Shown here: in pieces, positions 36,182 through 40,468 of the stretch | Numbering within the stretch: position 1 is the first letter of the stretch | Layout: each line of letters opens with the position of its first letter | Assembly (NCBI GenBank): GCA_903944135.1 | Contig: CAJAQL010000034.1 | Coordinates: 1 to 40,468 of the forward strand | Direction of reading: 5' to 3' | Origin: an uncultured Parcubacteria group bacterium | GTDB taxonomy: Bacteria; Patescibacteriota; Minisyncoccia; UBA6257; 2-01-FULL-56-20 | Length of the DNA: 40,468 nt | Notes under the pieces: model-generated | Seen by the model: the letters and a program-made list of their open reading frames with translations, nothing else | The model's database searches: none | Told to the model about the DNA's origin: nothing | Program-made: the position numbers and the translations under genes

Positions 36182-36255
36182 TGTCGTTCCCGCGAAAGCG
36201 GGAATCCAGGTTTAAAAGAAAGAGATTCTGGATTTCCGCATTCGCGGGAACGACA
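36182..36255. repeat. REPIN-like pair of inverted REP units
   Basis: Two units in opposite orientation, TGTCGTTCCCGCGAAAGCGG...ATCCAGG (36182-36210) and its inverse CTGGATTTCCGCATTCGCGG...AACGACA (36228-36255), separated by 17 bases. Each unit is itself an imperfect palindrome. Confidence 0.65.
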
Positions 36256-36547: not shown

Positions 36548-36810
36548 AATATATTAAGTGTAGCAGAATTTTTGAGCGGACACGAATAAAAATCATCTCT
36601 TTGCAAAAGCTTTTTTCCATTTCCGCACCTCGACAGACTCCCGCCTTTGCCAAAGCTATGGACGGGACAAGTGGGATAAGCTCCGGCAAGGGGTCATTTC
36701 TCCCTTTTTGCCATTCCGGCGAACGCCGGAATTCAGGGGCTAGTATGTTTGCGCCCGCGTGGCGGTTATTGGAAAAAGTTCGCACTTTTTACCAAGAAAA
36801 CCCCTACATT
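36548..36810. other. Intergenic region with a REP-like unit
   Basis: A REP-like unit CCATTCCGGCGAACGCCGGA-ATTCAGG lies at 36711-36737. The remainder has GC-rich inverted stretches but no gene I can support. It ends at the left inverted repeat of the terminal element. Confidence 0.5.
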
Positions 36811-37033
36811 GCCTAGTCGTTTACCCCTTCATTCAGGTAGTCACTAGCTCTTTTCGGAGTGACTACCATCCTAACTCAAAATCACCCCGTTATCATTGGC
36901 TTTCTTGCGTTGCCGCGATCTGAAATCCAATGCCGACTTCACTTCGCTCCGGCCTGCTGTCCTCCGCTCCGTTCATTGTCCTCGGCCTTCTCTCCCGTCC
37001 GTCTTTTGTTGTGGCTCGTTGGTGGGGGTGAAA
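36811..37033 (+). repeat. Left 223-bp inverted repeat of the terminal element
   Basis: Begins GCCTAGTCGTTTACCCC and ends GGTGGGGGTGAAA. Compared line by line, it is the exact reverse complement of 40246-40468 with no difference seen. It contains a smaller hairpin, GTAGTCACT/AGTGACTAC (around 36837-36866). Confidence 0.95.
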
Positions 37034-37090
37034 CAGTGAAATATGGTAGCGGACGGGTCGAGAAGGCCTCGGACGGAGAGGGTCTGAAAT

Positions 37091-37099
37091 TGCTATAAT
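37091..37099 (+). promoter_or_regulatory. Extended -10 promoter of the replication-relaxation gene
   Basis: TGCTATAAT (TGn plus a perfect TATAAT), 19 bases before the ATG at 37119 and just inside the left inverted repeat. Confidence 0.55.
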
Positions 37100-37118
37100 T
37101 GAGGCGTACAGCTTCTTT

Positions 37119-37982
37119 ATGCCCAACAATTTGCGCAAAAGGTTAGTCCGCAGGGAGGTAACCGACCCCCTCCGTTTAATGCCCCGCGATATGGAGCTTC
37201 TCCAAGAGCTCGGAGAGTCCAGATTCCTCAACACCGAGCAAATCCTCGCCCTACACCCCGGAGGCAGGCGCAATTTCCTTCGGAGGCTTGCCGCGATGTA
37301 CGACCTAGGCTATCTCGACAGGCCTAAAGTACAGAGCCGCTCCAAGTTGCCTTCCTCGCATATCGTCTATTCTCTCGGCAAGCAAGGCGTGGAAGCCGTC
37401 TTCGGGGACGCGGGGCAGTACCAAGCGGTGTTGCGCCGCCTGCGGGAGATCGAACGTTCTTTGCCGCTCATCGCCCACGCCTTGATGATCTCGCAGTTCA
37501 AAGTGTGCCTTACGCTTGCGACGCGGAAACGAAATGACCTCACGCTTGAACGGTGGTTGCAGGGCTATGACTTGAAATATTCATTGAAGGGGAGATACGG
37601 CGAGAATCCCGGACTCGTGCCGGATGCGTTTTTCGTCCTCGGACACGACGGGTACGAATATCCCGTTTTCCTTGAGGTTGATCGGGGCACGATGACGGAA
37701 GAACGATTCGTGAACAAGTTGAAACTCTATTGGCGGTGGTGGCGGGAAGAACGGATCAAGGACACTTTGGGATTTACCAATTTCCGGGTGATCACCGTTA
37801 CGCCGAACGAGACGCGGAGCGAGAACCTGCGGATCGCCTCGAAAGAGGCCAACACCGACAAGAAGGGCAGCAATATGTTCCTGTTTACGCCAGACAAAAA
37901 TTATTCCATTGTGAAGCCGGAGGCGATCTTCGAGCCTATATGGAAGTCGCCGAAGGACGATCTGCCGAAGGGGATTCTATAA
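37119..37982 (+). CDS. Replication-relaxation family protein (plasmid/ICE type)
   Basis: A 287-residue protein. An N-terminal winged-helix region (about 15-95: RDMELLQELGESRFLNTEQI, GGRRNFLRRLAAMYDLGYLD, SHIVYSLGKQGVEAVFG) is followed by a nuclease-like half with PDAFFVLGHDGYEYPVFLEV (D174, E188 and D190-type acidic pattern) and ERFVNKLKLYWRWWREER. This fits the replication-relaxation (Replic_Relax) family found on plasmids and integrative elements of Gram-positives and candidate phyla. It marks the region between the inverted repeats as mobile. No relaxase, integrase or transposase accompanies it. Confidence 0.8.
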   Translation: MPNNLRKRLVRREVTDPLRLMPRDMELLQELGESRFLNTEQILALHPGGRRNFLRRLAAMYDLGYLDRPKVQSRSKLPSSHIVYSLGKQGVEAVFGDAGQYQAVLRRLREIERSLPLIAHALMISQFKVCLTLATRKRNDLTLERWLQGYDLKYSLKGRYGENPGLVPDAFFVLGHDGYEYPVFLEVDRGTMTEERFVNKLKLYWRWWREERIKDTLGFTNFRVITVTPNETRSENLRIASKEANTDKKGSNMFLFTPDKNYSIVKPEAIFEPIWKSPKDDLPKGIL

Positions 37983-38021
37983 TGGTCTTGCCAAATTGCT
38001 TATTCAATAACTAAAAATCAA

Positions 38022-38049
38022 AAACTCGCCGTGCGTGATCGGCGAGTTT
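38022..38049. terminator. Bidirectional terminator
   Basis: Stem AAACTCGCCG/CGGCGAGTTT (10 bp, loop TGCGTGAT), between the convergent 37119 and 38065 genes, with A/T tracts on both sides. Confidence 0.7.
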
Positions 38050-38064
38050 AAGATTAACGATTGT

Positions 38065-38487
38065 CTACCAAGGAGAACTAATCTGCACGGGAACTACATC
38101 GGGGAACCTATCTCCTACCTTAGGATTCCACTTCTCGGCCAAAAATCGCTCCACTCCATCCATTAACGTCGGATGGACAGCTATCCATGTAGCATAAAGA
38201 CCTAATGGTCGATATGCGAGGATGCTCGAATCGTTGCGATGTTGAGAAAGGCGGTCGCTAATGACTCCTTGCCCCACCCTCACAACTGCTGGATTAGTGC
38301 CGCCGTGCCAAATGATGTAGACGCCACGCAAATCCTTGAAATGAGGATCTGCTAAGTTCAGCGTCATGAGATCGCACCACTTGCCGTCTGTGTACCGTAC
38401 CCAATTATTGGGACTCATTATTAAGTTGTCGATCGGGGATGTCTGTGGTAAGCTAAAACCAAGGTTAAAGGGTTGTAGCGCGGCCAA
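38065..38487 (-). CDS. GIY-YIG-like domain protein
   Basis: Up to 140 residues; a second ATG at 38418 (MSPNNWVRYTDGK) would give 117. It carries GVYIIWHGGTNPAVVRVGQG (GIY-YIG-like first strands, with G-V-Y and V-R-V-G), RLSQHRND, and DGVERFLAEKWNPKVGDRFP, where Glu may be the metal ligand, ending in VPVQISSPW. I recognise this as a small phage- or plasmid-associated nuclease-like family. Function is not established. Convergent with the replication-relaxation gene. Confidence 0.6.
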   Translation of the reverse strand: MAALQPFNLGFSLPQTSPIDNLIMSPNNWVRYTDGKWCDLMTLNLADPHFKDLRGVYIIWHGGTNPAVVRVGQGVISDRLSQHRNDSSILAYRPLGLYATWIAVHPTLMDGVERFLAEKWNPKVGDRFPDVVPVQISSPW

Positions 38488-38593
38488 GTCGACCCAAGAT
38501 TCACGCCTCTTGAAGCCGCTTTTCTCACTGTTCTACTCAAATCACTCCTTCTGGGGTGGTTTTTGTATGTGGAAGCGCCTGTGGACATCCCTA

Positions 38594-38646
38594 TTGCGCG
38601 CCACGGGGGATAATGCTATTATCTCATTAACCCTTGGGGTTAATGA
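38594..38646 (+). promoter_or_regulatory. Promoter and operator of the higBA pair
   Basis: -35 TTGCGC (38594-38599), 17-base spacer, TG-extended -10 TATTAT (38617-38622). A perfect palindrome TCATTAACCC-TTG-GGGTTAATGA (38624-38646) follows directly, covering the likely transcription start. This is the expected site for autorepression by the HTH antitoxin. Confidence 0.6.
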
Positions 38647-38706
38647 TAACCTCACAAGGGGAATAGCGCAAGAGGTGGTAGCGTTCAGGACGGCCTCATC
38701 TTATAC

Positions 38707-39033
38707 ATGATAGTATCGTTCGGCGATAAAAAGATTGCTAAGATATCAGACCCCAAAGAATGTACCAAGAATTATGGCTTAAGCATGAAGAAAATCATTC
38801 ATCGCAGGTTGAATGAACTCCATGCCGCACCAAGTCTCGAAACTATGCGGGGCATTGGTGATTGCCACGAATTACAAGGTAATCTTAAGGGTTACTTTTC
38901 CGTCGATCTACAAGGATCGTATCGGATGGTATTCAGACCCGCCACAAGCAATCCTCCCTACGTTGATAATAAAATGATTATCTGGGGGAAAATAACCGAG
39001 GTCGAGATAACTGAAGTTCTTGATTATCACTAA
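38707..39033 (+). CDS. higB: RelE/HigB-type toxin
   Basis: A 108-residue basic protein of the RelE/HigB killer family: IHRRLNELHAAPSLETMRGI, CHELQGNLKGYFSVDLQGSYRMVFRP, ending KITEVEITEVLDYH. HigB toxins cut mRNA on the ribosome. The toxin gene precedes the antitoxin gene by 6 bases, the order typical of higBA. The operator upstream supports a functional toxin-antitoxin pair that could stabilise the element. Confidence 0.85.
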   Translation: MIVSFGDKKIAKISDPKECTKNYGLSMKKIIHRRLNELHAAPSLETMRGIGDCHELQGNLKGYFSVDLQGSYRMVFRPATSNPPYVDNKMIIWGKITEVEITEVLDYH

Positions 39034-39039
39034 AATCCT

Positions 39040-40161
39040 ATGAACGATAAAAATACCGAGAAAAAGTTAATATTTAAACCAGTAATAGCGATAGCTCCCG
39101 GCGAAACGCTTTTGGAGGTCATCCGATCATTGGATATTACCCAAGCGGAATTGGCACGGAGGATGGGTCGCCCACTGAAACTCATCAATGAAATCATTAA
39201 AGGGAAGACTTCAATTACCCCAGAAACAGCAGTGCAGTTGGAACAGGTTTTAGGAAAGCCCGCGGCTTTTTGGAATAACCTAGAGTCGATGTACCAAGAT
39301 TTAAAAATCAGGCAAGAGCAAGGAAATAAGTTTAAGGAGATGATTGATGAAGCAAAAAAGTTTCCTTATGCAGAGATGGCGAAGCATGATTGGGTTCCCG
39401 AAGCGCGAGACGCAGTTAAAAGAGTAGAATGCCTACTCCAATTTTTCTCCGTTACTTCTTTTGAAAATATCATAGAAAAGGCAGCATTACAGGGAGCTTA
39501 TAGTATCTCCACAAAACATAAGCACTCTATGCCAGCGATTTATGCATGGTTAAGACAAGGCGTTCGGGAAACTGAGAATATAAGCGTCAATGATTTCGAT
39601 AAAGATAAATTAATCAATAGTTTACCGCTTATAAAAGCTCTCTCTAAATCAGGGCCAGATATTTTCGCCCCGGAATTAGAGAAAATTTTCAATGAATGTG
39701 GCATAGCTTTTGTGGTAGTCCCGGAACTGACAAATGCTCCGATTTTCGGATCGACAAGATGGCTAGCGCCAAATAAAGCATTAATTCAGATGAGCATCAG
39801 ATTAAAATGGGCTGATTATTTCTGGTTTCATTTATTTCATGAGATAGGGCATATTCTCTTCGACAACAAAAAAGAATTTAATGTGGATTTTAAGGAGAAT
39901 AATCCTAGGAAGGAATCCGAAGATAGGGCAAGTGAATTTGCGATGGACACTTTAATATCCAAAAATCACTATCAGGAGATCAAGACGAAGGTCGAAAAAT
40001 TAAAATCGCAGGGATCGAGTTTTTCTGGCGAGATAAAAAGCTTCGCTACACAATTAAATATTCATCCTGGAATAATTGTCGGCAGGCTACAGCATGAAAA
40101 GGTATTGCCCTATACATTCAACCAACTAAGGATGAGGTTGGAATGGGTAAAAAAAGATTAA
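39040..40161 (+). CDS. higA: HigA-type antitoxin fused to ImmA/IrrE metallopeptidase
   Basis: A 373-residue protein. Residues about 15-85 are an XRE helix-turn-helix of HigA type (PGETLLEVIRSLDITQAELA, INEIIKGKTSITPETAVQLE, GKPAAFWNNLE). The C-terminal part (about 225-330) is an ImmA/IrrE zincin with H267-E-I-G-H271 (FWFHLFHEIGHILFDNK) and SEDRASEFAMDTLI as the next helix. Such fusions may combine repression with regulated proteolysis of the antitoxin or another regulator. Separated from higB by 6 bases. Coding composition is more AT-rich than the region left of the inverted repeat. Confidence 0.87.
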   Translation: MNDKNTEKKLIFKPVIAIAPGETLLEVIRSLDITQAELARRMGRPLKLINEIIKGKTSITPETAVQLEQVLGKPAAFWNNLESMYQDLKIRQEQGNKFKEMIDEAKKFPYAEMAKHDWVPEARDAVKRVECLLQFFSVTSFENIIEKAALQGAYSISTKHKHSMPAIYAWLRQGVRETENISVNDFDKDKLINSLPLIKALSKSGPDIFAPELEKIFNECGIAFVVVPELTNAPIFGSTRWLAPNKALIQMSIRLKWADYFWFHLFHEIGHILFDNKKEFNVDFKENNPRKESEDRASEFAMDTLISKNHYQEIKTKVEKLKSQGSSFSGEIKSFATQLNIHPGIIVGRLQHEKVLPYTFNQLRMRLEWVKKD

Positions 40162-40201
40162 ACTAAGCTTAGGTCTAGTTGATATTCGGTTTTTATTTTT
40201 T

Positions 40202-40244
40202 TCGCGCTCGGCCTTGCGGCCTTGAGCGCGATTTTCTGTTTTAA
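40202..40244 (+). terminator. Terminator of the higBA operon
   Basis: Stem TCGCGCTC/GAGCGCGA with an inner GGCC/GGCC stem, followed by ATTTTCTGTTTT, just before the right inverted repeat. Confidence 0.8.
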
Positions 40245-40245
40245 T

Positions 40246-40468
40246 TTTCACCCCCACCAACGAGCCACAACAAAAGACGGACGGGAGAGAAGGCCGAGGA
40301 CAATGAACGGAGCGGAGGACAGCAGGCCGGAGCGGAGTGAAGTCGGCATTGGATTTCAGATCGCGGCAACGCAAGAAAGCCAATGATAACGGGGTGATTT
40401 TGAGTTAGGATGGTAGTCACTCCGAAAAGAGCTAGTGACTACCTGAATGAAGGGGTAAACGACTAGGC
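40246..40468 (-). repeat. Right 223-bp inverted repeat of the terminal element
   Basis: Exact reverse complement of 36811-37033. It ends at the last base of the window, so the outer boundary coincides with the sequence end, as when an assembly stops at a multi-copy repeat. Confidence 0.95.

Follow-up and report, generated by a model that had tools for sequence, protein, structure and literature searches.

What kind of element is bounded by long, perfect inverted repeats and yet carries no transposase between them? This question is raised by the last 3.66 kb (36811–40468) of a 40,468-nucleotide stretch of DNA (the window), which is the entire contig C34 (GenBank CAJAQL010000034.1) of a genome (856 kb, assembled into 38 contigs) from an uncultured Parcubacteria group bacterium (phylum Patescibacteriota). 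The original prediction, made from the letters alone, took the segment for a free-standing element: an invertible segment, an integrated replicon or a telomere-like element. Our analysis gives a different answer, which we hold with high though not complete confidence: the segment is the cargo arm of an integrative element inserted at the 3′ end of a tRNA gene by a large serine recombinase (LSR). It would then be one half of a larger element, whose LSR gene lies on another contig, C14.

The two arms and their junctions

Positions 36811–37033 and 40246–40468 are exact reverse complements of each other over 223 bp. The right arm (minus strand) ends at 40468 because the contig itself ends there, and it resumes on C14, an 11,314-bp contig of the same genome, bases 1–52 of which are the exact reverse complement of 36759–36810. 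Since C14 base 1 corresponds, on the opposite strand, to window base 36810, the arm continues with neither gap nor overlap, and since C14:1–52 supplies the remainder of the right arm, the full left arm (plus strand) spans 275 bp at 36759–37033 rather than 36811–37033, with 0 differences between the arms (275/275). The predicted perfect repeats are therefore exact and real but longer than proposed, and the suspicion that the assembly had broken inside a repeat proved correct. We infer that it is the right arm, not the left, that runs on into C14; the repeat exceeds typical short reads, and a flipped cargo arm fits the sequence equally well. No further copy of the 223-bp repeat was found elsewhere in the genome. 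Control sequence from the same organisms (236 kb of other DNA, from loci fetched for other reasons) contained no inverted repeat of comparable size, which excludes a chance origin.

C14 carries a second inverted-repeat module (C14:49–7210), whose 119-bp arms are 100% identical. It encodes Vsr, a cytosine methyltransferase, 695-aa and 204-aa proteins without a clear family, a protein matching a DnaA-type helix-turn-helix and sigma-70 region 4, and a 528-aa LSR (C14:5711–7297) with Resolvase (PF00239), Recombinase (PF07508) and zinc-ribbon (PF13408) domains. The full LSR domain set is thus present within the element, on the adjoining contig outside the window. The 3′ end of the LSR gene runs into a tRNA gene on the opposite strand (C14 c7207–7280). 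Searches of the four cargo proteins in the window against Pfam, NCBIfam and PADLOC found no transposase, so the prediction was right about the space between the repeats, but misleading, as a recombinase is present in the neighbouring arm.

The distal chromosome junction (attR) in the window contains the core GTGG at 36759–36762 (CCAC on the other strand), and the same four bases occur at C14:49–52 and C14:7207–7210. The three junctions read GGGT-CCAC-ATTTC at the tRNA, ACCG-CCAC-ATTTC between the arms and, where the window's arm meets the chromosome, ACCG-CCAC-GCGGG; the window element shares just this core with the tRNA and the chromosome. The whole element, about 10.9 kb with its cargo arm in the window, would run from the tRNA and core CCAC through the LSR arm (C14:49–7210) and another core to the cargo arm (36759–40468 plus C14:1–52), followed by a core and the chromosome. 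In the mechanism we propose, the LSR would recombine the attP of a circle with an attB lying at the 3′ end of the tRNA; attL would then be the tRNA junction, and attR the junction at window position 36759. That the element can excise and is active at present is something we infer. Two other LSR genes of the genome also lie near contig starts (C13, locus L045, at 1058; C3, locus L048, at 219), and more arms may be cut off there.

Attachment half-sites and a putative second attP

To compare element ends, the junctions of 21 loci were aligned on CCA (one row labelled as tRNA, L060, is a cargo-arm end). In the tRNAs the T-loop sequence GTTCGAA lies 20 nt before CCA (mean 4.95/6 matches; shuffled 95% maximum 2.14), a spacing dictated by tRNA anatomy. 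In the cargo-arm ends a GTTCGAA-like sequence lies 25 nt before CCA (mean 4.24/6; shuffled 95% maximum 2.29). The shift is thus 5 bp, with one locus (L071) showing 4 instead. In the window, the alignment of element ends places GTTCGCAC at 36778–36785 (minus strand), about 25 nt from CCA, as the GTTCGAAC-like motif of the P half-site. In serine integrases the zinc-ribbon motif lies 5 bp nearer the centre in attB than in attP (PMC3783163). The shift seen here matches this, which gives the cargo-arm ends the appearance of P half-sites and the tRNA end that of a B half-site.

In the standard layout, the single attP of an LSR element is split by integration into attL and attR. The elements described here differ, because what reads as a second, inverted attP stands inside the integrated element. 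The arm/arm junction combines the P half of attR with the half-site found at LSR-arm ends in attL (X), inverted and identical or nearly so over the lengths of the arms, in which the attP flanks reach approximately 70–290 bp. The repeats can accordingly be described as what two attP halves, each extended by these flanks and each present twice in inverted orientation, would look like, and the arm/arm junction as a putative intact second attP facing the opposite way. The element is filed as a variant of the LSR layout on account of this second site. The account we favour, tentatively and with somewhat under even weight, makes the internal attP a spare site to which the LSR would bind, close upstream of its own gene, with gene conversion between the arms preserving their identity. 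A rough comparison of the arm/arm junction with an attP rebuilt from the tRNA and chromosome junctions, using a loose 90% extension, failed at L136 and L144, where module limits are uncertain, and stopped early in one arm of L052 and L058 owing to small shifts; direct arm identities are the better measure.

Recurrence in relatives and competing explanations

To place the window element among its relatives, we used 40 LSR-gene loci from the order (681 kb in total, four loci from the source genome included), partly picked for having sequence on the low-coordinate side, and counted inverted repeats of at least 65 bp and at least 85% identity. Such repeats occurred at 20 of the 40 loci (37 pairs), against none in the control. 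Searching at the DNA level with the window repeat gave matches in four further genomes of the order, and in two of these a pair of copies flanks a gene of the Replic_Relax family, which the window arm also carries (G123, 89% identity; G066, 70%). The Replic_Relax arm of G123 is 89% identical to that of the window and lies within a 420-kb contig. All readable layouts are alike: an LSR arm whose outer end is the 3′ end of a tRNA abuts a second arm without a recombinase, and at bracketed loci with a tRNA nearby the LSR 3′ end faces it. LSR arms mostly measure 1.5–1.8 kb (up to 7.2 kb) and cargo arms 0.9–7.3 kb with varied genes; neighbouring arms have 3–6 bp in common at the junction in most loci. 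Arrays of three or four modules also occur (L011, L055), and the layout extends to other parts of the phylum (L132, L140, L142, L144), including the single-contig genome G248. Two-arm LSR elements with a putative spare inverted attachment site thus recur across the Patescibacteria searched. A different arrangement was seen at L080 (10893–17680), where several related 123-bp repeat copies lie in both orientations near an LSR.

Precise insertion could be read at a relative's array. In G090 (L066) a 2.85-kb array lies between the chromosome and tRNA-Ala, and the corresponding region of the congener G168 (L125) reads chromosome-GTGG-tRNA-Ala with no LSR. A degenerate second copy of the tRNA-Ala 3′ end, at about 7134–7160 of L066 and approximately 140 bp outside the array, suggests an earlier integration at the same tRNA.

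Several observations weigh against reading the window segment as an arm of a tRNA-inserted LSR element. About half of the LSR loci, tRNA-adjacent ones among them, have no inverted repeats, so the repeats are not needed for LSR integration. The tRNA at C14:7207–7280 is atypical, ARAGORN assigning it no amino acid (tRNA-???). Flank searches in 46 relatives for an empty site of the window insertion found none, returning scattered gene matches without shared synteny. The LSR-arm ends have a weak motif with no clear GTTCGAA and are not assignable to the P′ or B′ class by position, which makes the identity of X as P′ uncertain. Lastly, the second inverted attP is unaccounted for by a standard one-attP element. 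As a separate observation on the C14 tRNA (L047), its anticodon loop appears oversized, and the gene is possibly degenerate or intron-bearing.

Of the other explanations, the one that survives best, though we consider it unlikely, treats the cargo arm as a cassette in its own right, which has no recombinase, ends in palindromic attP-like sites (P.P′) and would be moved in trans by the LSRs of neighbouring elements, in a somewhat integron-like manner. The variety of cargo arms adjoining LSR arms fits this, as do the alternating arrays of four modules in L055 and three in G123, and the LSR arm next to the Replic_Relax arm is not the same in the window as in G123: the inner repeats are 89% identical (about 11% different over approximately 219 bp), while the outer half-sites, 50–70 bp, are unlike. 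Against it, no cargo arm was directly joined to a tRNA, each lying beyond an LSR arm in the loci examined, and neither a lone cargo arm nor a circle was seen. We are equally doubtful of its wider form, in which cargo arms would be a new class of satellite cassette, recombinase-less and with long perfect inverted repeats tipped with attP half-sites, exchanged among tRNA-inserted LSR arms of Patescibacteria and kept identical at their ends by a copying step such as a folded single-stranded intermediate or gene conversion. An integron cassette array was rejected because the recombinase is an LSR and its half-sites are attP-like, no search for attC sites being part of the comparison. Integrons likewise set compact cargo modules of varied content next to the module with the recombinase, but they use a tyrosine integrase and attC sites.

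Less probable still is an invertible segment, in which recombination between the arms would flip the cargo as a phase-variation switch. Long perfect inverted repeats allow flipping in principle, the assembly break lies in the repeat, and the arms are homogenised within the element while differing by 11% from those of G123, which are themselves 98.6% identical. In both Replic_Relax arms that could be placed, however, the Replic_Relax gene is at the distal end, and LSR arms with equally perfect repeats keep the LSR 3′ end toward the tRNA, so that free inversion is not seen there. Of the predicted invertible segment there remains the capacity that the arms confer; the repeats are better read as extended attP half-sites. 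Since arms are identical within an element yet differ between elements, copying between the arms of one element is likely, judging from these comparisons; since the LSR arms keep one orientation, reciprocal inversion is not an obvious source of the identity.

Very improbable, in our view, is a chromosomally integrated replicon or linear, telomere-like element whose replication protein would be Replic_Relax. The Replic_Relax gene does lie next to a terminal inverted repeat in several genomes, but the repeats recur in LSR elements without it, and at L037 and L041 the gene directly upstream of the LSR gene is Replic_Relax-like, for which reason Replic_Relax is better read as a gene of LSR elements; this part of the prediction is not upheld. 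An LSR-free Replic_Relax element was rejected as a general rule on the same two observations, and a transposon with terminal inverted repeats was rejected because there is no transposase between the repeats with a target-site duplication, only the core being shared with the tRNA and chromosome. An assembly fold-back or chimera, suggested by a right copy that stops at the contig's last base and named in the prediction as what would overturn it, is the least probable of all, as the arm runs on into a different contig (C14), relatives have both arms inside long contigs, a single-contig genome among them, and a relative's array has an empty site.

Cargo genes, known systems and significance

The cargo arm in the window encodes four proteins. 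The first (37119–37982, plus strand, 287 aa) matches Replic_Relax (PF13814, E 6e-25), in agreement with the predicted replication-relaxation protein, and its gene is conserved next to the same repeat in G123, G066 and G014. Its N-terminal part is winged-helix-like, and its C-terminal part resembles PD-(D/E)XK proteins by conserved residues only: D169, E186, D188 and K200 are invariant in a nine-sequence alignment, a pattern that would be expected of a PD-(D/E)XK-type site. The structure model is confident (pLDDT 83), and comparison of its fold gave nothing significant, the best match being a MarR-type regulator (E 0.026); weak matches to restriction enzymes and XisH followed (E 0.12–0.14), XisH being merely a lead. 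That the protein has a role in excision is a guess. In distant relatives, Replic_Relax-like genes directly upstream of LSR genes (L037, 9070–11595; L041, 9295–11938) lack the same surrounding inverted repeat.

The second cargo gene (38065–38487, minus strand, 140 aa) was called GIY-YIG-like in the prediction, a label that Pfam does not back even at E 0.05; searches of Pfam, NCBIfam and PADLOC gave no match. The proposed HigBA pair is supported in its second member: a HigA-like helix-turn-helix protein with a C-terminal extension (39040–40161, plus strand) passes the NCBIfam cut-off (TIGR02607, E 3.7e-15), while the HigB-like toxin (38707–39033, plus strand) is a weak match below the Pfam cut-off (PF05015, E 1.8e-4). 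The HigA-like protein also matches the PADLOC defence model PD-Lambda-2_B (E 7e-34); the ImmA/IrrE-like label of its extension comes from the prediction. Close relatives were not found among viral contigs. Outside the arms, REP-like palindromic repeats cgttcccgcgaaagcgggaat and gccattccggcgaacgccggaattc lie at 36182–36255 and about 36707–36735 of the window, with similar short copies elsewhere in the genome and in relatives.

Elements of the phiC31/A118/Bxb1 type resemble those described here in having an LSR with Resolvase, Recombinase and zinc-ribbon domains, a short core and the 5-bp motif shift between attP and attB (PMC3783163); unlike them, the present elements have attP arms of 70–290 bp, duplicated in inverted orientation, and retain an intact attP when integrated. 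The closest described system to this layout is that of the Dehalococcoides ssrA islands (PMC3146451), serine-recombinase islands stacked downstream of the 3′ end of an RNA gene, some of which have no integration module and are thought to be mobilised with their neighbours. Those islands, however, target tmRNA rather than tRNA and are bounded by 20-bp direct repeats, and the word "inverted" is absent from the main text of that paper. Islander-type islands (PMC4383910) share insertion at tRNA genes but are described as having tyrosine integrases, not an LSR, and a displaced tRNA fragment at the far end. The IS607 family shares mobility by a serine recombinase; it is described as having no terminal inverted repeats (PMC6188088), and the present element differs in its LSR and site-specific insertion at a tRNA. 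A literature search on LSRs at tRNAs in Patescibacteria, on integrative elements of these bacteria and on attP sites that are inverted or second copies turned up no account of the layout or of such a standing second attP, which is weak evidence of novelty, as subscription papers and preprints were mostly outside it.

Roughly every second genome sampled in the group has an LSR gene, and a good share of the LSRs have the two-arm layout. Of 35 LSRs, 9 have the far contig end no more than 2 kb away, against 1.8 expected. The layout thus tends to break assemblies, and cargo such as defence-like genes can stay hidden from genome-resolved studies. Two problems that the layout poses, its spare inverted attP and the matching arms of each element, lend themselves to simple tests. 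If our reading is true, every element of this kind has an intact attP in the assembled chromosome, and the recombinase, its attP and the tRNA attB can be read from one locus, which would aid the discovery of new integrases.

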